Origin: Desulfovibrionaceae bacterium | GTDB taxonomy: Bacteria > Desulfobacterota > Desulfovibrionia > Desulfovibrionales > Desulfovibrionaceae | Direction: 5' to 3' | DNA: 62,895 bases | Assembly: GCA_015709205.1 (NCBI GenBank) | Contig: JACCQO010000019.1 | Location: 1-62,895 of the forward strand | Part shown: positions 11,256-54,351 of the stretch, piece after piece | Layout of the letters: every line of letters begins with the position of its first letter | Position numbering within the stretch: the stretch's first letter is position 1 | Translations under genes and position numbers: made by a program | The notes under the pieces: model-generated | What the model was told of the DNA's origin: nothing | What the model saw: only the letters and a program-made list of their open reading frames with translations | The model's database searches: none

Positions 11256-12800
11256 TTATTTGAAGGCGCCGTCATCCTTGCTGCGGGGCAACCGTGCGTA
11301 CGCCTTGGTCTGGATGGCCCCGGCCTTGCGCACGTAGCGCCTGTCGTCGTCGTCGAAGATCCTGTAGGCCCAGGTCGGCTCGCAATCCGTGGCGTCCCGG
11401 ATAAAAAGCCGGTCCTTCTGGCTGTCCTTGATGGTCGCAGCGAGGGTGGCGGGGTTCCAGCCGTTCAGGCATACGGCCTTCAGTTCGTCGCGGATCGCGG
11501 CGTAGGCGGGCGCCTCGGCCACGTTCACCAGTTCGTCGGGGTCACGGGCCAGATCGTAGACGAGATCCGGGTGCCCGTGGGTGTAGATGTACTTGATATC
11601 GCCCCGGCGCACCATGCGGCAGGGGGCGCACGCCCCCTCTCCGGTGTACTCGCAGATGACCGTATCGTCCCGCCCGGGGTCCGCGCCCTCGGTCAGGAAG
11701 CGCCACAGGCTGCGGCCGTCGAAGGCCTTGACCGGCCGGGGGCCGTCGCCGCCGGTGACGATGTCCAGGACCGTGGGGGCCAGGTCCACCAGCGAGACGT
11801 TCCGGGCGATGCGGCCGGGCTTGAACGTGCCTGGCCAGTGGAAGATGTAGGGCACCCTGGCGGACCATTCGTAGAAGAGCTGCTTGTACCACTGGCCGCG
11901 CTCGCCGAGCATGTCGCCGTGGTCCGAGGTGAAGATGATGGCGGTGTTCTCGTAGAGGCCACAGTCCTTGAGCGCCTGGAGGATGTTGCCCACCTTCTCG
12001 TCCAAGGTGCTGACCATGCCGTAGTAGGCGTGGCGGGCGTTCTTGATCTGGTCCTCGGTGGGCGTGTCCAGGTCGCCCGCGTGGGCGTGGTAGATCCAGC
12101 GGCTCATCTCGTCCATGTCCTCTTCGGCCATGGCCGGGACCGTGGGCAGGTCGATATCGTCGTGCTCGTAGAGGTCCCAATACTCGGGCCGGGTGACGAA
12201 CGGCGAATGGGGCTGGGTGAAGGAGATGGTCAGGAAGAAGGGCCGCTCCTCGTAGCGCGCCAGATCGAAGATCTTGCGCACGCCGAAGTACTCGACCTCG
12301 TCGTCATAGTCGATCTGCAGGCTGCGCAGGCAGGTGCCGGCCTGGGTGATGCCCGAAAGGTTGATGCCCGTGGGGCGGTCGCCGAGTCCCTTTTCCCAGT
12401 CCGGGGCCCAGGCGTAGTTGGAAGGATAGATGTCGGTGGTCAGCCGCTGCTCGTAGCCGTGGAGCTGGTCCGGGCCCACGAAGTGCATCTTGCCGCACAG
12501 GGCGGTGCAGTATCCCATCCCGCGCAGGTAGTGCATGAGCGTGGGGGTGCTGGACAGGGCCTCGGTGGCGTTGTCCCACACGCCGATGCTGTTGGCGAAG
12601 CGGCCGGACAGCATGGACATGCGCGAGGGCGCGCACAGGGGGAAGTTGCAATAGGCGTTCTCGAACACCACGCCTTCTTCGGCGAGCCTGGTGATGTTCG
12701 GGGCCTTGACGACCTCGTGCCCGTAGGAAGGCAGCACCTTGGCCGTCATCTGATCCACCTGGATCAACAGGACATTGGGTTTTCTGGTCTCATCAGCCAT
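11256..12800 (-). CDS. betC: Choline-sulfatase, Cys-type
   Basis: A 514-residue alkaline-phosphatase-superfamily sulfatase. The N-terminal metal site is VLLIQVDQM. The signature is C56-A-P-S-R60, whose Cys must be converted to formylglycine. BetC-type blocks follow: CGKMHFVGPDQLHGYEQRL then TTDIYPSNYAWAPDW, PFFLTISFTQPHSPF, the second metal motif FTSDHGDMLGERGQWYK, and a C-terminal choline-sulfatase extension. It hydrolyses choline-O-sulfate to choline and sulfate. No signal peptide is seen, so it acts in the cytoplasm after import, consistent with the TRAP genes downstream. It is the first gene of the operon and has AAGGAGAT before the ATG. The freed sulfate is an electron acceptor for a sulfate reducer; choline could be cleaved elsewhere. 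Confidence 0.92.
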   Translation of the reverse strand: MADETRKPNVLLIQVDQMTAKVLPSYGHEVVKAPNITRLAEEGVVFENAYCNFPLCAPSRMSMLSGRFANSIGVWDNATEALSSTPTLMHYLRGMGYCTALCGKMHFVGPDQLHGYEQRLTTDIYPSNYAWAPDWEKGLGDRPTGINLSGITQAGTCLRSLQIDYDDEVEYFGVRKIFDLARYEERPFFLTISFTQPHSPFVTRPEYWDLYEHDDIDLPTVPAMAEEDMDEMSRWIYHAHAGDLDTPTEDQIKNARHAYYGMVSTLDEKVGNILQALKDCGLYENTAIIFTSDHGDMLGERGQWYKQLFYEWSARVPYIFHWPGTFKPGRIARNVSLVDLAPTVLDIVTGGDGPRPVKAFDGRSLWRFLTEGADPGRDDTVICEYTGEGACAPCRMVRRGDIKYIYTHGHPDLVYDLARDPDELVNVAEAPAYAAIRDELKAVCLNGWNPATLAATIKDSQKDRLFIRDATDCEPTWAYRIFDDDDRRYVRKAGAIQTKAYARLPRSKDDGAFK

Positions 12801-13305: not shown

Positions 13306-13419
13306 GTCGTTGACCGGGGCAGGCGTCCGGCCGGGCGGCGACACCGCACGGGCCGGCCTGCCATCCTATAAATTATTCCATTTTATCGGGGAGGGGGAGG
13401 GGATCATGCCCCGCTCCGC

Positions 13420-15489
<2,070 letters not shown>

Positions 15490-42792: not shown

Positions 42793-44343
42793 ATGCCGCA
42801 CCGACCGGGCCCCCCGCCCGATGCGCCGACAGGCTCGCCGCCCGCCCCCGCCCCGGCTCCGGTCCGGTCCGATCCGAACGCCGGGCCGCAACGGACCGAA
42901 ACGGACGCCCTGGGCGAGCGCCGCGTCCCGGTGGACGCCTACTGGGGCATCCACACCCTGCGCGCCCTGGAGAACTTTCCCCTGACCGGCCAGCGCTGGC
43001 CCGCGGAATTCCTCACGGCCCTGGCCCAGGTCAAGCGCGCCTGCGCCGAGGCCAACGCGGCCGTGGGCGCGCTCGACGAGTCCGTGGCCACGGCCATCCA
43101 GGGGGCCTGCCGGGAGATGGAGGACGGGACCCTGCACGAACACATGGTCGTGGACCCGCTCCAGGGCGGCGCGGGCACCTCCACGAACATGAACCTCAAC
43201 GAGGTCCTTGCCAACCGGGCCAATGAACTGCTCGGCGGCCGCCGGGGCGACTACGCGCCGGTGCACCCCCTGCGCCACGTCAACCTGCACCAGTCCACCA
43301 ACGACGTCTTTCCCACGGCGGTCAAGGTCGCGGGCCTGGCCCTGCTCAAGGAGCTGGAGGCCAACCTGGCCCGGCTGCAGGAGACCATGCAGCGCAAGGA
43401 ACAGGAGTTCGCCGACGTGCTCAAGGTGGCCCGCACCCAGTTACGCGACGCCGTGCCCATGACCCTGGGCATGGAGTTCGGGGCCTTCGCCGAAGCCCTG
43501 GCCCGCGACCGCTGGCGCGTGTTCAAGGCCCGCGAGCGCATCAAGCAGGTCAACCTGGGCGGCACGGCCGTGGGCACGGGGCTGGGCGCGCCGCGCGGCT
43601 ACATCCTGCGCGTGGTCGAGCACCTCAAGGGCATCACCGGGCTGCCCGTGTCCCGGTCGGAGAACCTGGTGGACGCCACCCAGAACGTGGACTGCTTCGC
43701 CGAGGCCATGGGCATCCTCACGGCCCTGGCCGCCAACCTGCTGAAGATCGCCAACGACCTGCGCCTGCTGGCCAGCGGGCCGGACTGCGGCCTGGGCGAG
43801 ATCGCCCTGCCGCCGCTGCAGGCCGGGTCCAGCGTCATGGCCGGAAAGATCAACCCGGTGCTGCCCGAGGCCGTGGCCCAGGCAGCGCTCAGGGTCATGG
43901 GCGCGGGCCAGACCGTGACCCTGTGCGCCGGCATGGGCCAGCTGGACCTCAACCACCTCCTGCCCCTGCTGGCCCACGAGTTCCTGGGGGCTCTCGGCCT
44001 GCTGCGCAACGCGACGGACGTCTTCGAGCGCAGGTGCGTGCGCGGCGTCGCGGCCCGGGCCGAACGCTGCCGCGAGCTGGTGGAGCGCAGCAAGGCCCTG
44101 GCCACCGTGCTGGTGCCGCCCCTGGGCTACGACGCGGTGGAGGCCGTGGTCCGCCGGGCCGAGGCCACCGGAGCCTCCGTGACCCAAACCGTGCTGGACA
44201 TGGGCATCGCCGACGCGGCGACCATCCGTGAACTGCTCTCGCCCAAACGCATGCGCAAGCTCGGGTTCACGGACGGCGAATACGACGGGCTGCGCGCGCC
44301 GTCCCAAGGCGCGCGGCCGGACCGGGACCCGGAAAAGGACTGA
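42793..44343 (+). CDS. aspA: Aspartate ammonia-lyase
   Basis: A 516-residue fumarase/aspartase-family enzyme that converts L-aspartate to fumarate and ammonium. After a Pro-rich 35-residue N-terminal extension the fold begins RTETDALGERRVPVDAYWGIHTLRALENF. It carries the substrate loop GGAGTSTNMNLNEVLANRA, LHQSTNDVFPTAVKVA and the catalytic signature GSSVMAGKINPVLPE near residue 344. AAGGAGA precedes the ATG. hydF follows after 90 nt. Aspartase genes recur beside hydE/hydF/hydG in other genomes, and ammonium is a nitrogen source for the dithiomethylamine bridge of the H-cluster. A role in supplying ammonium is therefore plausible; the distinction from a catabolic aspartase rests on context. 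Confidence 0.92.
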   Translation: MPHRPGPPPDAPTGSPPAPAPAPVRSDPNAGPQRTETDALGERRVPVDAYWGIHTLRALENFPLTGQRWPAEFLTALAQVKRACAEANAAVGALDESVATAIQGACREMEDGTLHEHMVVDPLQGGAGTSTNMNLNEVLANRANELLGGRRGDYAPVHPLRHVNLHQSTNDVFPTAVKVAGLALLKELEANLARLQETMQRKEQEFADVLKVARTQLRDAVPMTLGMEFGAFAEALARDRWRVFKARERIKQVNLGGTAVGTGLGAPRGYILRVVEHLKGITGLPVSRSENLVDATQNVDCFAEAMGILTALAANLLKIANDLRLLASGPDCGLGEIALPPLQAGSSVMAGKINPVLPEAVAQAALRVMGAGQTVTLCAGMGQLDLNHLLPLLAHEFLGALGLLRNATDVFERRCVRGVAARAERCRELVERSKALATVLVPPLGYDAVEAVVRRAEATGASVTQTVLDMGIADAATIRELLSPKRMRKLGFTDGEYDGLRAPSQGARPDRDPEKD

Positions 44344-44433: not shown

Positions 44434-45642
44434 ATGCAGGACGCGCCGCGCGGCGTTCGACTGGTCATCGCCATCGCCGGACCGAGGAATGCGGGAAAGT
44501 CGTCGCTGATCAACGCGATCACCGGCCAGGACATCGCCATCGTCTCCGAGACCCCGGGCACGACCACCGACCCGGTGGCCAAGCCCTACGAACTGCTGCC
44601 CCTGGGGCCCGTGACCTTCTACGACACGGCCGGGCTGGACGACGAGGGCGAGCTGGGGGCCCTGCGCATCAAGGCCACGCGCAAGGTCCTGCTGCGCGCA
44701 GACCTCTGCGTGCTGGTCTGCGGCGAGGGCGGCCTGGGCGCGGCCGAACAGCGCCTGCTGGACGAGCTCAAGGAGTTGGACCTGCCCGTGGCCGTGGCCG
44801 CCAACAAGGCCGACCTGCGGCCGCCCCGGCCCGGGGACGAGGAATTCTGCCGGGAGCGCGGGCTGCCCTTCCTGCCGGTCTCGGCCCGCACCGGCCAGGG
44901 CGTGGACGAGCTCAAGCGCACCCTGGTGGCCATGGCCCCGCCCGAATACCGGCAGGAGCCGCCCCTGGTGGGCGACTGCATCGGCGAGGGCGACCTCGTG
45001 CTCTGCGTGGTGCCCATCGACCTGGCCGCGCCCAAGGGCCGCCTGATCCTGCCCCAGGTGCAGGTCCTGCGCGACATCCTGGACAGCGACGGGCTGGGCA
45101 TGGTCGTGAAGGAACGCGAGATCGAGGCGGCGCTGGCGGGATTGGCGCGGCCGCCCGCCCTGGTGGTCACGGATTCGCAGGTGGTGCTCAAGGTGGCCGG
45201 GGACGTGCCCGAGTCCGTGCCCCTGACGACCTTTTCCACGCTCTTCGCGCGCTACAAGGGCGACCTGGCCGAGTTGGCCGCCGGGGCCGCGACCATCGAC
45301 CGCCTCCAGGACGGCGACCGCGTGCTGGTGGCCGAGGCCTGCTCGCACCACCCGGTGGCCGACGACATCGGCCGGGTCAAGATTCCGCGTTGGTTCGCCC
45401 AGTACACGGGCAAGGAGTTGCGCTTCGAGTTCTACGCCGGGCACGACTTTCCCGAAAATCTGGAGGGGTTCAGCCTGGCCGTGCACTGCGGGGCCTGCAT
45501 GCTCAACCGCACCGAGATGCTCCGGCGCATCAAGGAATGCCGCCGCCGGGGCGTGCCCATCACCAACTACGGCGTGGCCATCTCCAAGGTCCAGGGCCTG
45601 CTCGACCGCGTCCTGCGTCCCTTCGGCCTGAATCGGACCTGA
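44434..45642 (+). CDS. hydF: [FeFe]-hydrogenase H-cluster maturation GTPase HydF
   Basis: A 402-residue scaffold and GTPase. The GTPase domain has P-loop GPRNAGKSS (16-24), a switch region PGTTTDPVAK, DTAGLDD and NKAD. The dimerisation domain follows. The C-terminal cluster domain has the HydF iron-sulfur ligands C303-S-H-H306 and C352-x-x-C355. HydF carries the 2Fe precursor built by HydE and HydG to HydA. hydA, hydG and a canonical hydE are absent from the window. HydF instead sits tail to tail with HypE, separated by a bidirectional terminator, so association with the neighbouring nitrogenase-like operon must be considered. Confidence 0.95.
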   Translation: MQDAPRGVRLVIAIAGPRNAGKSSLINAITGQDIAIVSETPGTTTDPVAKPYELLPLGPVTFYDTAGLDDEGELGALRIKATRKVLLRADLCVLVCGEGGLGAAEQRLLDELKELDLPVAVAANKADLRPPRPGDEEFCRERGLPFLPVSARTGQGVDELKRTLVAMAPPEYRQEPPLVGDCIGEGDLVLCVVPIDLAAPKGRLILPQVQVLRDILDSDGLGMVVKEREIEAALAGLARPPALVVTDSQVVLKVAGDVPESVPLTTFSTLFARYKGDLAELAAGAATIDRLQDGDRVLVAEACSHHPVADDIGRVKIPRWFAQYTGKELRFEFYAGHDFPENLEGFSLAVHCGACMLNRTEMLRRIKECRRRGVPITNYGVAISKVQGLLDRVLRPFGLNRT

Positions 45643-45680
45643 GCCCCCCCGCCGCAGGCGCAAAAAAAGTTTAGGAGAGC

Positions 45681-45710
45681 CCAGAGAACCCTTTTCAAAG
45701 GGTTCTCTGG
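45681..45710. terminator. Bidirectional terminator between hydF and hypE
   Basis: A perfect 14-nt inverted repeat CCAGAGAACCCTTT / AAAGGGTTCTCTGG has a 2-nt centre. It separates the convergent hydF and hypE genes. The sequence resembles the hairpin at the end of the window (62853-62895). Confidence 0.8.
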
Positions 45711-45760: not shown

Positions 45761-46765
45761 CTAGCAGATGCGCGGCAGCTGTTCGCCTTCGAGCATGTTC
45801 AGCAGCCGCTTGCCGCCCAGCCGGGTGACGAGCGTGACCCGGCCCGCGGCCGCGTCGGTGACCGAGCCCACGCGGCGGGCGTCGCGGCCGAGTTCGTCCG
45901 CGCGCAGGATCGCCAGGGCCTCCTCGGCCCGGGCTTCGGGCAGGATGCACAGGAACTTGCCCTCGTTGGCCAGGTAGAGCGGATCGAGCCCGAGCACCGA
46001 GCAGCCGCCCGCGACCTCGGGCCGCACCGGAATGGCGTCCTCCTCGATCTCGCAGCAGACCCCGGAACTCTGGGCGATCTCGTTGAGCGTGGTGGCCAGG
46101 CCACCCCGGGTGGGGTCGCGGAGCACGTGGATCTCCGGGATGGCGCGCACCAGCCGCACCAGCAGATGGTTCAGGGCCGCGGAGTCGGACCGGACCTTGG
46201 CTTCGAAATCGAGCCCCGCGCGCGCGCCGAGCACGGTCAGGCCGTGGTCGCCCATGGTCCCGCTGACCAGCACCGCGTCGCCGGGCCGGGCCGCGTCGCC
46301 GCTGGGGGCCGGGTCCGCCACGATCTCGCCCAGGCCGGTGGTGTTGATGAAGATCTTGTCCACCGCGCCCCGGGGCACCACCTTGGTGTCGCCGGTGACG
46401 ATGCGCACGTCGGCGTGGCGCGCCGCGCGGCCCATGGATTCCACGATGCGCTCCAGGTCGGCCATGGGCAGCCCCTCCTCGATGATGAAGCCGCAGGAGA
46501 GGTATCTGGGCACCGCGCCGAGCATGGCCACGTCGTTGACCGTGCCGTGCACGGCCAGGGAGCCGATGTCGCCGCCGGGGAAAAAGATCGGGTCCACGGT
46601 GAAGGAGTCCGTGGACATGGCCATGCGCCCGGCGCAGCGCACTTCGGCCGCGTCGTTGAGGCGGTTGAGCTCCGCGTTGGAAAAATGGGTGACGAACAGT
46701 TCGGCCACCAGCCGCTGGGAGGCCTTGCCGCCGGAACCGAAGTCGAGAAGCACCTTGTCGATCAT
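45761..46765 (-). CDS. hypE: [NiFe]-hydrogenase maturation protein HypE
   Basis: A 334-residue PurM-like ATPase. The start DKVLLDFGSGGKASQRLVAELF and the inner VVPRGAVDKIFINTTGLGEI are family features. It ends in the obligatory PRIC, whose Cys receives a carbamoyl group from HypF and is dehydrated to a thiocyanate, the source of the CN ligands. The intact tail argues for function. It begins 3 nt after hypD, as the last gene of the eight-gene operon. HypF, HypA and HypB are not encoded here. Confidence 0.96.
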   Translation of the reverse strand: MIDKVLLDFGSGGKASQRLVAELFVTHFSNAELNRLNDAAEVRCAGRMAMSTDSFTVDPIFFPGGDIGSLAVHGTVNDVAMLGAVPRYLSCGFIIEEGLPMADLERIVESMGRAARHADVRIVTGDTKVVPRGAVDKIFINTTGLGEIVADPAPSGDAARPGDAVLVSGTMGDHGLTVLGARAGLDFEAKVRSDSAALNHLLVRLVRAIPEIHVLRDPTRGGLATTLNEIAQSSGVCCEIEEDAIPVRPEVAGGCSVLGLDPLYLANEGKFLCILPEARAEEALAILRADELGRDARRVGSVTDAAAGRVTLVTRLGGKRLLNMLEGEQLPRIC

Positions 46766-46768
46766 TCC

Positions 46769-47908
46769 TTACTCCACCTGGTATTTATAGTAGGCGGCGC
46801 AACTGCCCTCGGTGGAGACCATGCACGGCCCCACGGGGGCCGCCGGGGTGCAGGCCTTCTTGAACAGGGGGCACTGGTCCGGCCGGATGCGGCCCCGGAG
46901 CACGTCGCCGCAGCGGCAGCCCGGCAGAGGCGGGGTTTCGCCGATGGTCAGGCCGAATTCGCGCAGGGCGTCGAATTCCTCGAATTCGGGGCGGATTTTC
47001 AGGCCGCTGGACGGAATGCGCCCCATGCCGCGCCACAGGGCGTCGCAGGGCTCGAACACCGTGTCCATGACCTCCAGGGCCTTGGGGTTGCCCTCGTCGC
47101 GCACCACGCGCGTGTAGTTGTTGGCCACCCGGGCCTCGCCGCGGCTGCGCCAGCGGACCATCTGCAGCAGGGACTGAAGGATGTCCGCGGGCTCGAACCC
47201 GGTGACGACGGCGCTCTTGCCGAACCGCTCGGCAAGGGGCGCGTAGGGCGCAACGCCGATGACCGCGGAGACGTGGCCGGGCAGGATGAAGCCGTCGATA
47301 CGCGCATCCGGGTCGGCCATCAGGGCCTCCAGGGCCGGGGGCACGGTCTTGTGGAAGCACAGGATGCGCAGGTTGCGCACCCCCTGGGCGCGGGCCATGA
47401 GCACGGTGGCCGCGATGGTCGGGGCCGTGGTCTCGAAGCCCACGCCGATGAAGACCACCAGGTCGTCGGGATGTTCCCGGGCCAGGCGCAGGGTGTCGGC
47501 GGGCGAATAGACCACCTTGACCCGCGCGCCGTCGGCCACGGCCTTCTTGAGGTTGCGCCCCTTGTGCCCGGGCACGCGCATCAGGTCGCCGAAGGTGGCC
47601 AGGACGACCCGCTCGCGCGCGGCCAGGTCCAGGAAGGCGTTGACCTCGGACTCGTGGGTCACGCAGACCGGACAGCCCGGGCCGCTGAGGTGCACGACGC
47701 CCTCGGGCAGCAGGGAACGCAGCCCGCTGCGGAAGATGGCCACGGTGTGCGTGCCGCAGACCTCCATGAAGCGCAGCTCCCGGTCCAGTTCGCGTTCCAG
47801 CCGGACGAGCAGTCCGCGGCACAGTTCGGGGTCGCGGAAGCCCTCCAGCAGATCGAGGGTTTCCCGGGTCGCCATGGCGTCCGGGGTCCCCAGGGGTTCC
47901 GGAGTCAT
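46769..47908 (-). CDS. hypD: [NiFe]-hydrogenase maturation protein HypD
   Basis: A 379-residue iron-sulfur protein that with HypC assembles the Fe(CN)2CO unit. Visible hallmarks are FMEVCGTHTVAIFRSGLR, the redox motif GPGCPVCVT, VGFETTAPTIA, HVSAVIG and the C-terminal four-cysteine region with CRCGDVL, QCPLF and GPCMVSTEGSCAAYYKY. Start could be 47908 or an internal Met 11 codons later; both leave the fold intact. It is tightly spaced with hypC (4 nt) and hypE. Confidence 0.96.
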   Translation of the reverse strand: MTPEPLGTPDAMATRETLDLLEGFRDPELCRGLLVRLERELDRELRFMEVCGTHTVAIFRSGLRSLLPEGVVHLSGPGCPVCVTHESEVNAFLDLAARERVVLATFGDLMRVPGHKGRNLKKAVADGARVKVVYSPADTLRLAREHPDDLVVFIGVGFETTAPTIAATVLMARAQGVRNLRILCFHKTVPPALEALMADPDARIDGFILPGHVSAVIGVAPYAPLAERFGKSAVVTGFEPADILQSLLQMVRWRSRGEARVANNYTRVVRDEGNPKALEVMDTVFEPCDALWRGMGRIPSSGLKIRPEFEEFDALREFGLTIGETPPLPGCRCGDVLRGRIRPDQCPLFKKACTPAAPVGPCMVSTEGSCAAYYKYQVE

Positions 47909-47912
47909 GGCG

Positions 47913-48158
47913 TCACCCTTCCGTGCCCGTGCCGCCGATACAGTGCGCGTCGCCCAGGGCGCGCAGGCTTTCCTCGGCCTGGGCGCGGTCCAGGACGCGC
48001 AGGGCGAACCCGGCGTGGATGATCAGGAATTCGCCCGGGCGCGGCGGCTCGGGCAGGAGCATCAGCGAGGCCTTGATCGTGGTCTGCCCGCGGTCCACCC
48101 GGCAGGTGGCCACGTCGCCCTGGATGCTGAGAATTTCGGCGGGAACGGCGAGACACAT
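47913..48158 (-). CDS. hypC: [NiFe]-hydrogenase maturation chaperone HypC/HybG
   Basis: An 81-residue chaperone starting MCLAVPAEI; Cys2 is the essential residue that holds the Fe(CN)2CO moiety and contacts the hydrogenase large subunit. Typical features are IIHAGFALRVLD near residues 46-57. An AGGGGAGGA site precedes the ATG. It follows the NifD/N-like gene by 70 nt, a gap with a GGCGCG/CGCGCC hairpin. A large-subunit-like client is encoded in the same operon. Confidence 0.95.
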   Translation of the reverse strand: MCLAVPAEILSIQGDVATCRVDRGQTTIKASLMLLPEPPRPGEFLIIHAGFALRVLDRAQAEESLRALGDAHCIGGTGTEG

Positions 48159-48228
48159 GGTATCCTCCCCTCTGCGCGGCCGCTGGGGCCGCTGGTTGAC
48201 CGGCGCGAAAGCGCGCCGCCCGGCGGCC

Positions 48229-49443
48229 TCAAGCGTGCAGCAGGTGCCCGGCCAGATAGTCGTAGCCCGCGTCCACGGCGTATTCGTAGGCCATGTCCCA
48301 GTGGATGCGGGCGCTCATGGCGATGTGCGGCAGGGGCACGAAGGCGGCCCGGCCGCGCAGCAGGGCCCTGTAGCAGGGATCGGCCACAATCAGGTCCACG
48401 TCCGGATCGTTCATCAATTCGGCGATGCGGCCCTCCTCGTCCGTGTCCAGGTCGCCCGCCTCGCGCGCGGCCAGAACCCCGAGGCACCCCTCGCCCTGGC
48501 GGAACAGCGCGTCGCCGGGGCTGACCGAAACCACGTCCACGCGGTCCACGCCGAAGTCGTGGCGCAGGCAGTGGCGCAGCCCGTGCCCGAGCACGGGTTC
48601 GCCGACGACCAGGGCGTGCCTGTGCGGCGCGGGGCGGTCGGGCGCGGGCACGGGTCGGTCGGACGCGGAGGCCTCGCCGCGCAGCAGGGCCAGAAAGGCT
48701 TCGCGCCCGGCCCGGCCCACGGGCATGCCCACGGCATAGGGAATGCCGTAGTCGGCGAACATCCGCCGGGCCAGGGCCAGCCCGCTGGTGGAGACCACGG
48801 CGTTGACCGCGGCCCCCGGGGCGCGGCGCACGCCCGACAGGGGGTCGGCCTGCCCGGGCCGGGACGCGGAGAACACGGCCACGGGCTCGAACCCGCCCGT
48901 GCGCAGGGCCCCGAGCAGGGGCTCGATGTGGACCTCCTTGCCCGTGGACAGGTGGATGGCCCCGAGCACGTTGATCCCGTTGGCGACCTTGGGCGCGTCC
49001 GGGTCCATGAACTTGTCGGCCAGGGCCAGCAGCGCCTTGGACGCGCCCTCGGCATAGGGCTCGGACCCGGCCGTGGGGACCATGAACACCGGCATGTTCG
49101 TGCGCGCCTCGATGGTCCGGGCGAACCCCTTGAGGTCCGTGCCGATGATCTCGGAGATGGGCGTGCCGGACAGGGCCACGAAGCGGCGCTCGAGCCCCTT
49201 GGCCGTCTGCACGATGTTGTCGATGAACTTGGCGTCGTTGCCCAGGATCACGTCCATTTCCAGGAGCCCGGCGCCCACCACCGTGGCCGGGCCGCGGTAC
49301 CAGCGCGGCTCGTCCTCGATGTTGATGTGCCAGGCCCCGCCGGCCGGGCCGTAGATGACCACCAGGCCGTCGAAGTCGTAGAGCGCCGAGCTGACGCCGA
49401 AGTAGCCCGTGGCCAGGGGAAGCAGGTGGTGGTATTCTTTCAT
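48229..49443 (-). CDS. NifD/NifN-like nitrogenase-superfamily component 1 protein lacking cluster cysteines
   Basis: A 404-residue protein of the oxidoreductase nitrogenase component 1 family. The N-terminal half shows VVIYGPAGGAWHINIE, TVVGAGLLEMDVILGND and FVALSGTPISEIIGTDLKG, matching GPxGC, ILG and the C..E.IGDD segment of NifD/K/E/N. Both Cys ligand positions are Gly here (G36 and G93), and residues 1-110 contain no Cys. In the DPOR pair BchN/BchB three Cys come from one subunit and one Asp from the other; a similar asymmetric cluster is possible with its partner encoded upstream. The linker around residues 270-285 is Pro-rich. AAAGGA precedes the ATG. It is about 80-120 residues shorter than NifD. 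Confidence 0.82.
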   Translation of the reverse strand: MKEYHHLLPLATGYFGVSSALYDFDGLVVIYGPAGGAWHINIEDEPRWYRGPATVVGAGLLEMDVILGNDAKFIDNIVQTAKGLERRFVALSGTPISEIIGTDLKGFARTIEARTNMPVFMVPTAGSEPYAEGASKALLALADKFMDPDAPKVANGINVLGAIHLSTGKEVHIEPLLGALRTGGFEPVAVFSASRPGQADPLSGVRRAPGAAVNAVVSTSGLALARRMFADYGIPYAVGMPVGRAGREAFLALLRGEASASDRPVPAPDRPAPHRHALVVGEPVLGHGLRHCLRHDFGVDRVDVVSVSPGDALFRQGEGCLGVLAAREAGDLDTDEEGRIAELMNDPDVDLIVADPCYRALLRGRAAFVPLPHIAMSARIHWDMAYEYAVDAGYDYLAGHLLHA

Positions 49444-49505
49444 GGAATGTCCTTTTGCATGGCTCTGTTGCGGGGCGCGTTCCGGTCGCGGGGCGCGCCG
49501 ACGGG

Positions 49506-50804
49506 CTAGATCAGGAAGTTGTGGCCGTAGATCCAGTCGTAGTTGCTCACCGGACGTTCCAGGGCCTCGCGGGTCCGCTCCAGCATCCAGAGCGTGGCCT
49601 CGTAGCCGTACTTCTGCTCCTGGTAGCGCGACAGGGGCACGTTGGCCGCGTTCACGCAGTAGATGCCCGCGTCCACGCCGTAGGCCACCTGCACGTGGTC
49701 GAAGTCCCCGGTGCGGCCGCACAGGGCCGGGTGCGAGGCGTTGTAGACCGGGATCTCCGGCCGGACCTTGCGCAGTCGCTCGATGAGCTCCCATTCGTAG
49801 GGCTTGATGGTCCCCCGGGCGAAGAGGGCCTGCACGTCGATCCCCTCGCGGACCAGGAACAGGGCCAGTTCGAAGGGGCTGCCGTTGATGGCGCAGCCCA
49901 CGGCCACGGACTTGCCGCGCAGGACGTCGAGCATGGGCCCGGCCGCCTCGCGCGCCGCCGCCTCGCGCGCCGCCACGTCCAGTTCCCGGCCCACGGCCCG
50001 GGCGATCCTGGCGTAGTTCTCGCGGATGGCCTCGAACCCGTAGGACGTGGGCGCGAAGCAGGAGGGGATGTCCATCTCCGCAACCATCTTCCCGTTCAGC
50101 CCGTTGGCCAGGGGATGCAGGACCACGGAGGCCCGCGCGTCGGCCATGGCCGAGAACTCCTTGAGGTCCCGGCACAGGGGAATCTGCAGGATGCGGCGCA
50201 CGCCCGCGCCGCGCAGCACCTGGTAGAGCTCGCCGGAGTCGGACAGGGGCATGAAGGTGCCCAGCAGGTTGACCGTGTCCGCGTCCGGCGTGCGCGACTC
50301 GTGCCTGAGAAAGTCGAAGAACGCGGTGTAGGCCGAGGTGAAGGGCGAGTCCTTGAGCCCGATGGTGATCGGGGCCATGGCCCCGAGGATGACGCGCCGC
50401 CCGGTGGCCGCCTCCAGCCGGTTGATGACCCCGGTGAAGTCCGTGCCCAGGATGTAGTCCGGGCAACCCACGATCAGGAAGATGACCTTCTCGTCGCGCC
50501 GGGACGCGATGTCCAGGACGCCCTGTTCCACCTTTTGCAGGTGGTTGCCCAGGGTCATGTCCAGTTCGGAGACGCAGAGCATGTGGAAGCGCTCGGTGAA
50601 GCCCCGGGCGTGGGCCATGAAGGCCGAATGGCGCAGGCAGGCCGAGGGCCCGGCCATGACCGCCAGGGATTCGGGCAGCAGCAGGCAGGTCTCGATGACC
50701 CCCCAGCCCGCCAGGTTGGGCCCCACGCCCTCCAGCGGGGCGAAGGGGAAGTCCGCCTTTTGGCGCAGGTCCGCGATCTTGATGCGCGCGTGATCCAGGT
50801 CCAT
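49506..50804 (-). CDS. NifK/NifE-like nitrogenase-superfamily component 1 protein with three candidate cluster cysteines
   Basis: A 432-residue nitrogenase component 1 homologue. Candidate cluster ligands are C40 (VIETCLLLPES), C56 (GPSACLRHSAF) and C114 (IVGCPDYILGTD). The C56-C114 spacing of 58 equals the NifK C95-C153 spacing. The rest is the expected three Rossmann-like domains (VINRLEAATGRRVI, VAVGCAINGSPFELALFL). GGAGGA lies 7 nt before the ATG. It probably pairs with the Cys-poor partner encoded 62 nt downstream and is reduced by the NifH-like protein encoded 18 nt upstream. NifB and other FeMo-co genes are not in the window, so this is not N2 fixation machinery on present evidence. 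Confidence 0.85.
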   Translation of the reverse strand: MDLDHARIKIADLRQKADFPFAPLEGVGPNLAGWGVIETCLLLPESLAVMAGPSACLRHSAFMAHARGFTERFHMLCVSELDMTLGNHLQKVEQGVLDIASRRDEKVIFLIVGCPDYILGTDFTGVINRLEAATGRRVILGAMAPITIGLKDSPFTSAYTAFFDFLRHESRTPDADTVNLLGTFMPLSDSGELYQVLRGAGVRRILQIPLCRDLKEFSAMADARASVVLHPLANGLNGKMVAEMDIPSCFAPTSYGFEAIRENYARIARAVGRELDVAAREAAAREAAGPMLDVLRGKSVAVGCAINGSPFELALFLVREGIDVQALFARGTIKPYEWELIERLRKVRPEIPVYNASHPALCGRTGDFDHVQVAYGVDAGIYCVNAANVPLSRYQEQKYGYEATLWMLERTREALERPVSNYDWIYGHNFLI

Positions 50805-50822
50805 GCGGCTATCCTCCGTGGC

Positions 50823-51590
50823 TCAGGCGGCGTTGCGTTCGGCCGCGAAGTTGACGATGGTCCCGGCCAGGTCGAAGAAGCGGGCCGAGGTGGGCAGCGT
50901 CGGGTCGCCCTCCACGATGGTCCTGCCCTGTTCCTCGAAGGCGTGGATGGCCGTGTCGCGCGGGATCACGCCCACGACCTCGGTCCGCATCTCGGCGGCG
51001 AAGTCCCGCACGCGCTCCACCTCGTCGGCCATGTCGCGGCAGTTGAGGATCAGCCCGCCCAGCTCCGCGTAGTTGCGGTCCGCGAAGTTGCGCAGGGCCA
51101 GGATGATGTTCCGGGCCGCGAGCAGGGCCATCTTCTCGCCCGAGGTCACGATGCAGACCTTGTCCGCGAACCCCTCGCGCATGGGCACGGCGATGCCGCC
51201 GCAGACGATGTCGGCCAGGATGTCGTAGAGCACCACGTCCGGCTGGTAGGCCTCGTAGGCGCCCATCTCGTCGAGCAGTTCGAAGGCCGTGAGCATGCCC
51301 CGGCCGAAACAGCCCACGCCCGGGGTGGGCCCGCCCACCTCCATGCAGACCACGTTGCCGAACCCGCGCCGGGCGATCTGCTCCAGGCTGTCCGGGCGGC
51401 CCTTTTCCTGCAGGTATTGCAGAATGGGCGGCGGCGGAGTGCCGCCGAGCAGGTTGATGGTCGAGTCGGTCTTGGGATCGCACCCCAGCTGCATGACGTT
51501 GTACCCCCGGGTGCCCAACGCGGCGGAGATGCCCGAGGTCACCGTGGACTTGCCGATGCCGCCCTTGCCGTAGATGGCTACCTTGATCAA
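50823..51590 (-). CDS. NifH-like ATP-dependent iron-protein reductase
   Basis: A 255-residue NifH/BchL/CfbC-class ATPase, shorter than the usual 270-295. It has the P-loop GKGGIGKST (8-16), CDPKTDST, cluster ligands C94 (GGPTPGVGCFGRG) and C130 (DILADIVCGGIAVPMR), and R97 at the NifH ADP-ribosylation position. It would form a homodimer bridging one [4Fe-4S] cluster and deliver electrons with ATP hydrolysis. The start is TTG, overlapping the TGA of the upstream gene (TTGA), with AGGGGGAA as ribosome site. The longer frame reads through the HydE-like gene and is a shadow. Confidence 0.93.
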   Translation of the reverse strand: MIKVAIYGKGGIGKSTVTSGISAALGTRGYNVMQLGCDPKTDSTINLLGGTPPPPILQYLQEKGRPDSLEQIARRGFGNVVCMEVGGPTPGVGCFGRGMLTAFELLDEMGAYEAYQPDVVLYDILADIVCGGIAVPMREGFADKVCIVTSGEKMALLAARNIILALRNFADRNYAELGGLILNCRDMADEVERVRDFAAEMRTEVVGVIPRDTAIHAFEEQGRTIVEGDPTLPTSARFFDLAGTIVNFAAERNAA

Positions 51591-52612
51591 ATCGCTTCCC
51601 CCTGCATTTTGAGTGAATGGCCCTTGCCCGGGTTCACGGTTCTTCCGGCGCGCTCGAGCACGCGCCGAGCCTCGTCCACGGACACGTAGCGCTTGTTCGT
51701 GGTGATCTGGAACTCGTATTCGATCTTGTCCTTCCTGCTCTGCAGGAACGGATTGCAGTTGGGCATGAGCACGTTGGCCCCGCCCTGGGTCAGGGCGCGG
51801 AACTGCCCCTCGTCCGGGTCCAGGGTGGCCACGGTGTTGGCCGCGGCCATGTGCGTGTTCCCGGTGACCAGGCGCGTCAGGGCGAAGACCCGGAGCATGA
51901 GCTCGACGTCTCCGGCGGGCTCGTCCCTGAGCGGGGTCTGGGCGTGGGGAATGAACGGGCCGATGTTGATCATGTCCGGCTGGAAGTCCTGGAAAAAAAG
52001 CACGTCCGCGCAAAGGTCCTCCAGGGTCTGGCCCGGCAGCCCCACGATGTTGCCCACGCCCACCTGGAAACCCAGCTCGCGCAGTTCGCGGATGGCCGCC
52101 AGCCGGTCCTCGAGCTTCAGGCCCGGGCGCATGCGCGCGTACAGTTCCGGGTTCATGGTCTCGTGCTTCATCAGGTAGCGCTCGGCCCCGGCGGCGCGGA
52201 AGGCGCGCAGGTCCTCGCGGGAGCGCCGCCCCAGGCTCAGGGTGATGGCCACGTCCGCCCCGTCGAGAATGCGCTCGATGATCGAGCAGAGCATTTCCCG
52301 GGTGTAGTGCGGATCCTCGCCGGACTGCAGGACCACGGTGCGGAGCCCGGCCTCGGCGATGGCCAGGGCCGTGTCCACGATCTCGTCCTCGCTCATGCGG
52401 AACCGCTCGCAGCGGTCGTTGTCGCGCATCAGGCCGCAGTAGAGGTCGTTGCAGCGGCAGTGGTTGGCGAAATGGACCACCCCGCGCAGCTGCGCCGCGT
52501 CGCCCACCCGGTCGCGGCGCACCCGGTCGGCCTCGGCGAAGAGGGCCGCCTGGTTGTCCGCGTCGCGGAGCGCGTCGAGAATGTCTTCCCGTTGCAGATG
52601 TTGCATGGTCAT
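51587..52612 (-). CDS. HydE-like radical SAM protein with atypical CxCx4C cluster motif
   Basis: A 341-residue protein strongly resembling HydE: DRVRRDRVGDAAQLRGVVHFANH, TVVLQSGEDPHYTREML, TLSLGRRSREDLRAFRAAGA, MKHETMNPELYARM, VGNIVGLPGQTLEDL, MINIGPFIPHAQTPL. The radical SAM cluster motif reads C52-R-C54-N-D56-L-Y-C59. The central Cys of the usual Cx3Cx2C is Asp56, with an extra Cys at 54. In HydE the motif is strictly Cx3Cx2C, and HmdB uses Cx5Cx2C. Either cluster ligation is different or the protein no longer does SAM chemistry. The start may be 52612 or 52606. It lies 17 nt after the large-subunit-like gene and is translationally coupled to the NifH-like gene. Confidence 0.88.
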   Translation of the reverse strand: MTMQHLQREDILDALRDADNQAALFAEADRVRRDRVGDAAQLRGVVHFANHCRCNDLYCGLMRDNDRCERFRMSEDEIVDTALAIAEAGLRTVVLQSGEDPHYTREMLCSIIERILDGADVAITLSLGRRSREDLRAFRAAGAERYLMKHETMNPELYARMRPGLKLEDRLAAIRELRELGFQVGVGNIVGLPGQTLEDLCADVLFFQDFQPDMINIGPFIPHAQTPLRDEPAGDVELMLRVFALTRLVTGNTHMAAANTVATLDPDEGQFRALTQGGANVLMPNCNPFLQSRKDKIEYEFQITTNKRYVSVDEARRVLERAGRTVNPGKGHSLKMQGEAI

Positions 52613-52629
52613 GCGTTTCCCCCTGGCCG

Positions 52630-54351
52630 TTACGTGGCGTCCACCAGGATCGTGCGGCCGGTGTTCGTGTCCTCCACCACAAGGTGGCAACCGTTGCAGG
52701 GATCGAAGGCGTGCACCGTGCGCAGGACCTCCAGGGGATGGCCGGGATCGGCCACGGCCGTGCCCAGCAGGGCCTGCTCCAGGGGGCCGCGCACTCCCTG
52801 CGCGTCGCGCGGGGAGAAATTCCACAGCGAGGGGATCAGGTAGTCGTGGTCCGCGATGCGTCCGTCCTCCATGCGCACGGAGTGCAGCAGCGCGCCCCGG
52901 GGCACCTCCACCCGGCCCAGGCCCAGGCCCGAGGAAGGCAGCCGGACCTCGGTGCGCAGCGGCGCGCCGCCGCGCAGGGTCCGCTCCAGCTCGTCCAGCC
53001 AGTCCAGGGCCGCCCGGGCCAGCACCGCCGCCTCCACGCCCCGGGCCAGGAGACGCCCCAGGGTGGAGTTCATGGCCGCCGGGGCCAGCCCGCAGTTCTC
53101 CAGGCTGGCCTGCAGGATTTCGTGGACCGGCTCGCGGCCCAGGGCCCAGGCCCCCATGAGCCGGGCCAGGGGACCCGCCTCGCACGGGGTCGCGCCGAGG
53201 CGCGGCGCGCTCAGCCAGGCGAAATCGCCCTGGCCCCAGCGAAACTCCAGGCCCGTGGCGTCCGGGCGCAGCCGGTAGCGGTCGCGCTCCCCGGGGCTCC
53301 AGCGCGGCTCGCGCTCCTCGCGGATCGGGCCGTCCGCCGCGCGCACGTTCCAGCCCGCGGCGTTCCCCGCTCCGGCGGCGCGGCCCGGTCCGTCCGGCGC
53401 CGGGGCGGCGACCCCACCGGGAAAGAGCGTTCCCTCGCCCGCGGGGTGCGCGTAGTCGCCCCAGCTCAGGAAGGAGCCGCCGCGCCCGATCTCCGCCCAG
53501 TGGGCGTGGGCCCGGGCCAACCGCTCCAGGTCGGGCAGCAGGGCGCGCGCCACGAATTCGCGGCAGCGCAGCACATGGACGCGCACCTGGTCGCGCACCC
53601 GCGCGCCCAGGTCCATGCCCTCGGGCAGCCCGCCCAGGCTGTAGGCCGCGAAGCCCTGGGGGCCGCAGTCCAGCAGGGCCAGGGCCGCGTTGATCGCGGC
53701 TCCGGCCTGGAGCGCCTCCAGGCCGTGCGCGTGCAGCAGCAGGTGCAGTTCGTCCGGGCCGTGGCGGTCGGGATGGGGTCCGGCCCCGCCGCCGATGGCC
53801 TGGGCCCCCTGCTCGCGGACCAGGGTTTGCAGCCGGGCCTGGACACTGCGCAAGCTCTCCGCGCCGCCCGTGGCTCCGCCCGGAGCGCCGGCGGCGGCCA
53901 GCCGGGCGGCGCGGGCCGGATCGGCGCGCAGCGCCGCGTCCAGGCAGGCCCAGTCGGAAAGATGGAATTGGTAGACGTGGAGCAGTTGCTCCTGGATACA
54001 GCGCAGGGCCTGGACCAGGCTGCGCACCAGCAGCGCGCCGCGCGGCACGGCCACGCCCGCCAGGTCCTCCACGGCGCGCACCGCGGCCAGGGCGTGGCCG
54101 TCGTTGCAGAGGCAGTGCGCCTGCTGCGCAAAGCGGGGGTTGCCCTGCTCGTCCAGCCCGCCGCGCAGGAGCACGTTCATGTTGCGCAGCATCCGCCCGG
54201 TGCTCCAGGCCTCGTCCACGCGCCCGTCCACCAGGCGCACGCCGATGACGAAGGTGTTTCCCGGGCAGGGGATTTCCCGGCGCGGAGCGCCCTGGTCCGG
54301 CCCTCCGGCAGCGGGGGTGGGGGCGGGGTGCGCCTTGTCCACTTGCATCAT
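52630..54351 (-). CDS. Orphan [NiFe]-hydrogenase large-subunit-like protein with altered metal motifs
   Basis: A 573-residue homologue of hydrogenase large subunits (NiFeSe_Hases family): FVIGVRLVDGRVDEAWSTGRM, HALAAVRAVEDLAGV, EQLLHVYQFHLSDW, and C-terminal FDPCNGC. The N-terminal metal motif normally written RICGVC is A-H79-C80-L-C82-N, so one Cys position is His and the spacing is CxC. The C-terminal pair C552/C555 is kept. The His/Arg after which maturation proteases cut (DPCxxCxxH) is Val, and the 18-residue tail has no canonical cleavage site. No small-subunit gene is present. Start is at MM (54351 or 54348) after GGAG; the upstream in-frame sequence lacks homology. It is the first gene of the operon and a probable client of HypCDE, either as an enzyme or as a cofactor scaffold. 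Confidence 0.82.
   Translation of the reverse strand: MMQVDKAHPAPTPAAGGPDQGAPRREIPCPGNTFVIGVRLVDGRVDEAWSTGRMLRNMNVLLRGGLDEQGNPRFAQQAHCLCNDGHALAAVRAVEDLAGVAVPRGALLVRSLVQALRCIQEQLLHVYQFHLSDWACLDAALRADPARAARLAAAGAPGGATGGAESLRSVQARLQTLVREQGAQAIGGGAGPHPDRHGPDELHLLLHAHGLEALQAGAAINAALALLDCGPQGFAAYSLGGLPEGMDLGARVRDQVRVHVLRCREFVARALLPDLERLARAHAHWAEIGRGGSFLSWGDYAHPAGEGTLFPGGVAAPAPDGPGRAAGAGNAAGWNVRAADGPIREEREPRWSPGERDRYRLRPDATGLEFRWGQGDFAWLSAPRLGATPCEAGPLARLMGAWALGREPVHEILQASLENCGLAPAAMNSTLGRLLARGVEAAVLARAALDWLDELERTLRGGAPLRTEVRLPSSGLGLGRVEVPRGALLHSVRMEDGRIADHDYLIPSLWNFSPRDAQGVRGPLEQALLGTAVADPGHPLEVLRTVHAFDPCNGCHLVVEDTNTGRTILVDAT

Follow-up and report, generated by a model that had tools for sequence, protein, structure and literature searches.

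A hydE*-nflHDK operon that appears to assemble the [FeFe]-hydrogenase H-cluster without HydG

In the described pathway, the H-cluster of [FeFe]-hydrogenase (HydA) is matured by HydE, HydF and HydG, and the textbook account, as given in the sources cited here, makes tyrosine cleaved by HydG the sole source of its CO and cyanide (PMC3105041; PMC12752695). According to the second of these sources, maturation in vitro can do without HydG and HydE when synthetic [2Fe]E is supplied (PMC12752695). The other described systems with which the locus presented here can be compared are HypCDEF of [NiFe]-hydrogenase, the NifEN/NifH maturase, in which a NifH-driven NifDK-like pair serves the assembly of another enzyme's metallocofactor, and the reductases DPOR (BchLNB), CfbCD and Mar, which have a NifH-type ATPase and a NifD/NifK-like pair. 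The DPOR cluster is a single [4Fe-4S] for which one subunit supplies three Cys, the remaining ligand not being a Cys, and the large subunit of [NiFe]-hydrogenase is defined by the motifs RxCGxC and DPCxxCxxH/R, with four Cys in all.

The stretch of DNA analysed (the window) comprises 62,895 nucleotides of contig JACCQO010000019.1 from a Desulfovibrionaceae bacterium. A sequence-only reading had described an eight-gene operon on its minus strand, with gaps of -4 to 70 nt, that converges on aspA-hydF; coordinates and family profiles bear out all eight genes and the spacing (a 4-nt overlap up to 70 nt), and the aspA-type gene and hydF do lie convergent with the operon, downstream of it.

54351-52630, minus strand: LSU-like, a [NiFe]-hydrogenase large-subunit-like protein, 573 aa (PF00374, 289.6 bits)
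52612-51587, minus strand: hydE*, HydE-like, 341 aa (TIGR03956, 270.6 bits, cut-off 254.6)
51590-50823, minus strand: nflH, NifH-type ATPase, 255 aa, with a TTG start that overlaps the hydE* stop (PF00142, 251.2 bits)
50804-49506, minus strand: nflD, NifD-like, 432 aa (PF00148, 91.1 bits)
49443-48229, minus strand: nflK, NifK-like, 404 aa (PF00148, 78.5 bits)
48158-47913, minus strand: hypC, 81 aa, N-terminus MCLAVP (TIGR00074, 61.3 bits, cut-off 48)
47908-46769, minus strand: hypD, 379 aa (TIGR00075, 432 bits, over cut-off)
46765-45761, minus strand: hypE, 334 aa, C-terminus PRIC (TIGR02124, 438.8 bits, over cut-off)
45661-45710, minus strand: inverted repeat then T-run between the converging operons, a putative terminator-like element read from the sequence
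44434-45642, plus strand: hydF, H-cluster scaffold GTPase (TIGR03918, 543.3 bits)
42793-44343, plus strand: aspA-type ammonia-lyase (NF008909, 608 bits, cut-off 510)

The aspA-type gene, whose true start is probably internal to the called ORF, falls under the TIGR00839 aspA equivalog cut-off (493 versus 681 bits); an association of aspA with hyd genes is described, such genes being usual hyd neighbours (PMC11736057). The hydF of the window is the sole HydF match in its own genome (G000). By gene content and family profiles the window operon has no [NiFe] small subunit gene beside the LSU-like gene, and neither it nor the operon of the Desulfofervidaceae genome G192 has HypA or HypB genes. The characteristic Hyp motifs are all present in the window (CGTH and GPGCPVC in HypD, MCLAVP in HypC, and PRIC, with its C-terminal Cys, at the end of HypE), and its HypD is one of two copies in the genome, the other being at G000:C93.

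The earlier reading had made its case depend on finding the neighbourhood elsewhere, and the core hydE*-nflHDK is indeed present in 15 distinct genomes. The order LSU-HydE*-NflH-NflD-NflK is repeated in all seven of the other loci first found, with proteins 40-87% identical to those of the window, in three later Desulfovibrionaceae loci (G504, G508, G510), and in a further one (G509) whose LSU is truncated by a contig end; since it recurs in other genomes, the gene order of the window is not due to chance. LSU-like heads the core in 12/12 Desulfovibrionaceae loci and, when the operon itself is looked at, is absent from both Desulfofervidaceae operons visible whole, namely G192 (hydA-hydB-TM1266-like-hypE-hypC-aspA-hydF-hydE*-nflHDK-hypF-hypD) and G224 (hydA-hydB-TM1266-like-aspA-hydF-hydE*-nflHDK-hypF). 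Other layouts are those of G061 (aspA-hydF-LSU-hydE*-nflHDK-hypC-hydA-hydB) and of G466, a separate divergent case (hydA-hydB-TM1266-like-hydE-hydF-two nflHDK sets-hypF). HypF is encoded in the G192, G224 and G466 operons, and hyp genes adjoin the core in 11/15 loci; because the operon HypD copies do not form one clade, hyp genes joined the operon more than once. The common core is thus hydE*-nflHDK, to which LSU and hypCDE are lineage-variable additions, and its steady partner is the set of [FeFe]-hydrogenase genes.

HydA is encoded in 15/15 operon genomes, with H-cluster motifs in all 17 HydA loci tested across them, and hydB adjoins hydA in each of 15 loci tested (13 genomes). HydF is present in 14/14 operon genomes looked at (8/8 among relatives, plus G504, G508, G510, G224, G192 and G513, where hydF is cut by a contig end), a count that leaves out G509. 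HydG is missing, by the TIGR03955 cut-off, from 12/15 operon genomes, among them the single-contig genomes G069 (99% complete) and G048 (100%) and the window's own genome (98.4%), and is present in three (G058, G065, G504); HydE and HydG were counted at E <= 1e-40 (1e-20 in one HydG search), a threshold that a very divergent enzyme could escape. Among the 35 genomes with HydA and HydF matches in a set of 120 relatives, the window's own genome included, HydG exceeded the cut-off in 2/8 with the operon versus 24/27 without it (Fisher p = 0.0012, kinship ignored). G069 is colinear with its congener G504 at the hyd locus, except that the hydE and hydG stretches are gone (974 bp versus ~181 for the former, 1408 bp versus 157 for the latter), and hydG of G024 is truncated to its N-terminal third. 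Because HydA and HydF are steady partners and HydG is so often missing, the product is most likely the known H-cluster, reached by an undescribed route. The end product put forward in the sequence-only reading, with the orphan large subunit at the centre of a new metallocofactor or reductase, finds no support, LSU being absent from two whole operons and HydA and HydF being constant partners. Its idea of a CO/CN-ligated iron holds up, and the hyp genes, rather than serving only an unrelated hydrogenase, are located inside [FeFe]-hydrogenase operons.

HydE* passes the TIGR03956 cut-off for HydE and lacks the radical-SAM motif CX3CX2C, which all ten canonical HydE rows have; instead, 15/15 HydE* rows read CX3DX2C, with D56 aligned to the middle motif Cys of the solved HydE 5few. 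In 10/12 HydG-less operon genomes no HydE other than HydE* was found, the other two (G024 and G048) retaining canonical HydE besides HydE*, and each of the three HydG-positive operon genomes has a second HydE. Since mutations of the motif cysteines of a Clostridium HydE are described as impairing maturation (PMC9431212), HydE* may not act as HydE does.

The P-loop GKGGIGKST and C94/C130 of NflH are invariant in 8/8 rows. NflH lies under the NCBIfam cut-offs for CfbC (269.3 versus 402), BchL (167.4 versus 345) and BchX (149 versus 331), as well as under that of the NifH model, and its operon rows form their own supported group in a tree, distinct from the included rows of NifH, Mar-type and BchL proteins (a CfbC row was absent), so that the tree comparison proposed in the earlier reading places it outside these known clades. 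The NflD/K-type models were missed by wide margins (BchN 44.1 versus 420; BchY 31.5 versus 425; CfbD 24 versus 268), as was the NifE model (26 and 42 bits versus 505). Among solved structures, those nearest in sequence to NflD are 9d9u and 9fmg; for NflH it is 9fmg, which we take to be the Mar complex. In NflD, C56 and C114 align with NifD cysteines, the third NifD position being outside the alignment, and are invariant in 14/14 rows; further Cys occur at C77 (11 rows) and C115 (3 rows). The NifD cofactor-Cys position is Leu, Val or Ile, beside an invariant His230, a placement uncertain by one residue owing to a one-column alignment gap. The NflK residues that correspond to NflD C56 and C114 are Gly and Pro, and no Cys is conserved in those regions (8 rows, one of which, L017, has a lone Cys nearby); aligning NflK directly with NifK yielded nothing usable. 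Ligation of a P-cluster by three Cys per subunit, as in Nif and Mar, is not found in NflD and NflK, a paucity of conserved cysteines shared with DPOR. NflHDK nevertheless differs from DPOR, CfbCD and Mar in lying under the curated cut-offs tested, in having conserved cluster Cys in NflD only, and in being linked to hydrogenase maturation.

In an alignment with 3cus, a [NiFe] large subunit, LSU-like retains C82, C552, C555, the Arg of PRG (R485) and the Pro-Ser pair (507-508), all invariant in 11/11 rows, and we presume for these pocket residues the functional roles assigned to them. The first Cys of RxCGxC is lost and the second retained, the DPCxxC pair is kept, and the final His position of DPCxxCxxH/R is Val or Leu in 5/8 rows and Arg in 3/8, which leaves the full four-Cys motif set of [NiFe] large subunits incomplete. 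LSU-like is a probable scaffold or carrier of Fe(CN)x(CO)y.

Judging from genome comparison, we consider it highly probable that the operon serves as a HydG-independent maturation module for the H-cluster, in place of HydG; the genomes support its replacing HydG, and usually canonical HydE too, where HydA, HydB and HydF are kept. In the scheme that we propose, HypE/HypF and HypC-HypD would make Fe(CN)2(CO) from carbamoyl phosphate, as they do for [NiFe]-hydrogenase, and in Desulfovibrionaceae the LSU-like scaffold, its pocket kept and its nickel-only cysteine lost, would hold this unit. NflH and NflDK, as an ATP-driven two-component reductase, would then reduce it to a low-valent state and/or give CO, yielding an Fe(CO)x(CN) synthon and standing in both for HydG and for the reduction that the HydE radical performs elsewhere. 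HydE*, with Asp for the middle Cys, would join two such units into a [2Fe] precursor, which HydF, with AspA-derived ammonia, would complete and load into HydA. Fe(CN)2CO has one CN per iron too many for the H-cluster, and extra chemistry is therefore needed. That the steps from scaffold to HydE* run in exactly this form is doubtful. The balance is even on the broader claim of a second, chemically independent H-cluster biosynthesis, with Hyp-derived cyanide and first CO instead of tyrosine, NflHDK redox in place of radical SAM, a HydE* that works with no canonical radical-SAM cluster, and an iron-carbonyl-cyanide carrier in the form of a retired [NiFe] large subunit.

A narrower role for NflH and NflDK can also be entertained, in which they act as a CO synthase, turning CO2 into CO and giving only extra CO, while Hyp gives cyanide and the iron unit is built on HydE*. 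The NifH and VnfH of A. vinelandii are described as converting CO2 to CO, with a yield raised by ATP (PMC9571451), the P-loop and the two cluster cysteines are intact in NflH, and the passage from Fe(CN)2CO to [Fe2(SH)2(CN)2(CO)4] would take more CO; however, the mean column identity of NflD (74%, 14 rows) and NflK (77%, 8 rows) goes beyond what NflH alone would need, and we regard this as a tentative possibility. It is hardly credible that NflHDK belongs with the tetrapyrrole-type or methylthio-alkane reductases and has no hydrogenase role, a reading to which the closest solved sequences lend themselves, given that the BchLNXY, CfbC/CfbD and Nif cut-offs are missed, that NflH stands apart in the tree, and that Mar cluster cysteines described for that enzyme have no counterpart in NflK (PMC12552129).

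An enzyme encoded elsewhere and not recognised as such might instead carry out the HydG reaction, or free cellular CO and cyanide might suffice, with the operon modifying, repairing or protecting the H-cluster. G011, G034 and G042, relatives that do not carry the operon, have no HydG and yet keep HydA, HydE and HydF, operon and HydG coexist in three genomes, and HydF expressed with HydE and no HydG is described as activating HydA to ~1%, and more with CO or cyanide (PMC9431212). Against this stand the absence of HydG from three differently built hyd loci with the operon (G069, G024, G048), the ten genomes in which HydE* is the sole HydE found, and the hypE, hypC, hypF and hypD genes inside the G192 hyd operon, which point to ligand synthesis; we therefore think it improbable. 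Slightly less probable still is the view that NflHDK, HydE* and HypCDE exist to mature LSU-like, making this protein the final product (a new enzyme or cofactor protein), with hydF/aspA nearby by accident: the leading position of LSU-like in the Desulfovibrionaceae loci and its kept Fe pocket residues would fit, but both whole Desulfofervidaceae operons pair hydE*-nflHDK with [FeFe]-hydrogenase genes and no LSU-like, loss of HydG and HydE goes together with operon presence, and the window operon is without a small subunit gene.

The module that we favour shares HydA, HydB, HydF and AspA, a HydE homologue and presumably its destination with the HydE-HydF-HydG pathway, and departs from it in the frequent lack of HydG, the missing middle radical-SAM Cys, and the addition of NflHDK, Hyp and, in one family, LSU-like. 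With HypCDEF it has in common intact HypC/D/E motifs, HypF in three operons and an Fe(CN)2CO pocket in LSU-like; here, however, the hyp genes sit beside [FeFe]-hydrogenase genes and LSU-like is one Ni ligand short. NflHDK would resemble the NifEN/NifH maturase in serving the cofactor of another enzyme, the target cofactor being a different one. Our literature search found no description of a hydE*-nflHDK system, in keeping with the earlier claim that no described system has this gene set.

Overall, H-cluster assembly by this operon appears to be an undescribed route, in which genome comparison suggests the replacement of HydG and the chemistry would be as proposed above. It might bear on the acetogenic Clostridium genomes described as having HydE, HydF and HypCDEF with no clear HydG, for which atypical HydG-like candidates are listed (PMC9431212). 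If true, a natural HydG-free route would break the single-source rule, and the maturation of [NiFe]- and [FeFe]-hydrogenases would not be separate; it would also mean a new function for a nitrogenase-like enzyme and a second way to produce active [FeFe]-hydrogenase in the laboratory. Nif, Hyp and Hyd, the three great metallocofactor assembly systems, would then converge in one pathway.

All eight genes named by the sequence-only reading lie on the minus strand between 45761 and 54351 of the window, with gaps of between -4 nt (an overlap) and 70 nt, and their names agree with Pfam and NCBIfam assignments. The product resembling a [NiFe]-hydrogenase large subunit (LSU-like) matches PF00374 at 289.6 bits in Pfam, the HydE homologue, here called HydE*, matches NCBIfam TIGR03956 at 270.6 bits against a cut-off of 254.6, the NifD/NifK-type pair, NflD and NflK, matches PF00148 at 91.1 and 78.5 bits, and the remaining products are a NifH-type ATPase (NflH), HypC, HypD and HypE. 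An aspA-type gene and hydF face the operon, and between the converging operons, at 45661-45710, an inverted repeat with a T-run can be seen by eye and is probably a terminator. The window is an entire contig of a 4.25-Mb genome (G000) with a completeness of 98.4%. The gene set had been read as a new metallocofactor or reductase around an orphan LSU-like protein; genome comparison instead favours a new route to a known active site over a new enzyme, and the operon would stand in for HydG during maturation of the [FeFe]-hydrogenase H-cluster.

NflD was found in eight of 120 relatives, the window's own genome counted. A scan of named genomes returned nine loci, three of which belong to the already known G020, G024 and G061 while six are new; it was a single pass with two short peptides as the query, so distant members will have been missed. 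A profile search at the level of the phylum (395 genomes), which is the whole sample beyond near relatives, gave seven matches, one of them, G466, a divergent relative. With G224 and G192 recognized as the genomes of L058 and L059, each genome counted once and G466 left out, the total is 15 operon genomes:

Desulfovibrionaceae, 12 genomes: G000, G020, G024, G048, G058, G061, G065, G069, G504, G508, G509, G510
Desulfofervidaceae: G224, G192
Desulfobacterales: G513
New loci of the named-genome scan: L052, L053 and L057 (Desulfovibrionaceae), L058 and L059 (Desulfofervidaceae), L060 (Desulfobacterales)

Every operon genome has a HydA match over the cut-off (15/15), and the H-cluster motifs of HydA, TSCCP, MPC and CPGGC, are present in all 17 HydA loci examined, which together span the 15 genomes. 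A gene that we call hydB adjoins hydA at 15 of 15 loci tested, in 13 genomes including G466. HydG is over the cut-off in only three operon genomes, G058, G065 and G504; in the other 12, profile searches of the assemblies, several of which derive from metagenomes, found none over the cut-off. The sole HydE found by such searches is HydE* in G000, G020, G061, G069, G508, G509, G510, G224, G192 and G513, while G024 and G048 have a second HydE and no HydG over the cut-off, and the three genomes with HydG have a second HydE as well. Of the 120 relatives, 35 gave matches to both HydA and HydF under the thresholds applied; two of the eight that carry the operon and 24 of the 27 that lack it have HydG over the cut-off (Fisher p = 0.0012, a value that ignores kinship). 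G011, G034 and G042 have neither the operon nor HydG over the cut-off, though HydA, HydE and HydF are present; within 10-17 kb around their hydE-hydF no HydG or Nfl genes were found, which may reflect gaps in the assemblies or a further route. Eleven relatives (G002, G013, G027, G044, G045, G054, G056, G060, G070, G110 and G119) have HydA over the cut-off and no HydF match at E <= 1e-30.

The gene order LSU-hydE*-nflH-nflD-nflK is present in all 12 Desulfovibrionaceae loci, the LSU gene of G509 being truncated at a contig end. Next to the core of hydE* and nflHDK lie at least one hyp gene at 11 of the 15 loci (the exceptions are G024, G048, G058 and G065) and hydF with aspA at seven (G000, G020, G061, G508, G510, G224 and G192); in G513, hydF is at the end of one contig and hydE* at the start of another. 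Both hydA and hydB are near the core in G061, G508, G224 and G192, the last of which has a single run of hydA-hydB-TM1266-like-hypE-hypC-aspA-hydF-hydE*-nflH-nflD-nflK-hypF-hypD, with hydG and an LSU-like gene both missing from the run itself. The small TM1266-like gene recurs by hydrogenase or maturation genes (L104, the G192 locus, 12146-12448; L098, the G466 locus, 13344-13655; L101, 10788-11102).

Loss of the canonical genes can be seen at the locus itself. G041, G504 and G069 belong to the same genus; hydA-hydF-hydE-aspA-hydG are clustered in G041 and G504, of which G504 additionally has the operon, and the hyd locus of G069, on one contig, aligns with that of G504 at 72-86% identity, with the hydE stretch shortened from 974 to about 181 bp, the hydG stretch from 1408 to 157 bp, and the operon elsewhere in the genome. 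A 37-residue match in G069 was rejected as a relic of hydG, the matched DNA being upstream of the hydG start. In G024, hydG is reduced to about its N-terminal third, a fragment of genuine HydG sequence with stops after it, and G048 keeps hydF-hydE-aspA-hydA on one contig with hydG gone. The simplest history is that the operon was gained, both systems were kept for a period, and hydG was then lost, with hydE afterwards. What counts against such a one-way history is the nflH of G504 (L107, about 8278-9041), a genome that also keeps hydE and hydG: it is matched as two pieces that overlap but differ in reading frame, and may be broken.

Most of HydE* can be aligned with the solved HydE 5few, which we take to be that of T. 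maritima, and QSGED, TLSLG, GPFIPH and MPN are retained, with D56 at the position of the middle motif cysteine. CX3DX2C is present in 15 of 15 HydE* rows, against CX3CX2C in 10 of 10 rows of canonical HydE drawn from the same genome group; a 100/100 branch separates the two, and the HydE* motif holds no further invariant cysteine. This pattern would imply either an Asp-ligated cluster or loss of the radical step. Because mutation of conserved motif cysteines in Clostridium HydE led to defective maturation, according to the part of PMC9431212 drawn on here, HydE* is unlikely to act exactly like HydE.

NflH retains the P-loop and both cluster cysteines. In a tree whose reference rows were NifH, one chain that is presumably Mar-type (9fmg), BchL and BchX, with G504 NflH and CfbC absent, the 14 operon NflH proteins form a 98/96 group that two G466 NflH join at 95/86; the deeper forks are weak, and the placement of BchX, on a very long branch, is meaningless. 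Two NflD cysteines, C56 and C114, align with cysteines of NifD, and a third is at position 77 in 11 rows and at 115 in the other three, suggesting a single small cluster, one ligand of which has moved. In NflK the residues corresponding to C56 and C114 are Gly and Pro, no conserved Cys lies near them, and direct comparison of NflK with NifK gave no usable alignment. At the position of the NifD cofactor Cys, NflD most probably has Leu, Val or Ile; the invariant His230 was rejected as a substitute for that ligand, the Cys being likelier at 229, to which His230 is only adjacent. Given these cysteine patterns, no P-cluster and no cofactor of the nitrogenase type would be expected in NflDK, for which a DPOR-like architecture appears to fit best. 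A related nflH-nflD-nflK set, followed by an iron-type ABC transporter, lies on the Treponema saccharophilum plasmid pTS1 (L163, 14220-20516), with annotated hyd and hyp genes absent over about 14 kb on each side of nflHDK, and serves as an outgroup. A plasmid origin was rejected; among plasmid records, NflD was matched solely in pTS1.

The LSU-like gene, on which the reading of a new enzyme centred, is not universal among operon loci. Compared with the [NiFe]-hydrogenase chain 3cus, its product keeps the second Cys of RxCGxC (C82) and both Cys of DPCxxC (C552 and C555); C82 and C555 presumably bridge the Ni and Fe atoms. In RxCGxC the first Cys, a terminal Ni ligand, is not conserved, position 79 being occupied by H, A, S or C, and there is a new invariant C80. 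R485 and S508, which we take to be the Arg and Ser holding the cyanides, are invariant across 11 rows, the final His position is Val or Leu in five of eight rows and Arg in three, and the window protein has an 18-residue tail after C555. We infer that the protein could hold Fe(CN)2CO but would have no normal Ni site. The idea that G509 and G510 have hyp genes and no other [NiFe]-type subunit was dropped, as another G510 protein has an RxCGxC-type motif. Other PF00374 matches occur in the Desulfofervidaceae genomes, and an LSU-like copy may be among them.

The motifs of HypC, HypD and HypE in the window are intact. HypD is matched in all 15 genomes (14 over the cut-off, with a fragment in G513), a second copy is present in G000, G020, G069, G504, G192 and G508, and the HypD copies of the operons fall into more than one clade. 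The hyp genes are thereby shown not to be an old fixed part of the operon, and their repeated recruitment argues for a functional link. The divergent G466 (L098, 2181-15389) has hydA-hydB-TM1266-like-hydE-hydF-nflH-nflD-nflK-nflH-nflD-nflK-hypF, in which HydE has the canonical CX3CX2C and the Nfl proteins share about 22-52% identity with their window counterparts; its HydG, located elsewhere, is barely over the cut-off (325.6 versus 312.15 bits). This arrangement resembles an independent or ancestral form of the system and provides a second instance of Nfl and Hyp genes within an [FeFe]-hydrogenase operon.

In the portions of PMC12752695 and PMC11736057 used here, tyrosine is the starting material from which HydG builds Fe(II)(CN)(CO)2(Cys), HydE takes this product down to Fe(I) and couples two such units, and both enzymes can be replaced by synthetic [Fe2(SH)2(CO)4(CN)2]; excerpts of PMC11736057 add that the bridging amine can come via aspartate ammonia-lyase, and of PMC9571451 that CO2 can be reduced to CO with NifH proteins. 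Replacing HydG would require a cyanide source, a CO source and a reductant. The Hyp proteins would supply cyanide and one CO, NflHDK would be the obvious choice as reductant and may also provide CO, and HydE* would be left for the joining step. Replacement of HydG by the operon is supported by the genomes and is very likely; each chemical step is deduced, and the exact chemistry is a tentative proposal that may well prove different. With HydF and a HydE homologue retained, the system could on a stricter view be regarded as a variant of H-cluster maturation.

A search of open-licence papers found no description of this gene set or of HydG-free maturation, and no described maturation system is known to join these parts or to work without HydG. 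The sections of PMC9431212 drawn on here report that five of eight acetogenic Clostridium have no detectable HydG, four of these having HypCDEF without HypAB, and that HydF made with HydE alone gives about 1% activation; the authors' explanations there are atypical HydG-like candidates or the use of free CO and cyanide. As far as those sections go, the puzzle of acetogenic Clostridium that have HydE, HydF and HypCDEF and no clear HydG might fit the route proposed here.
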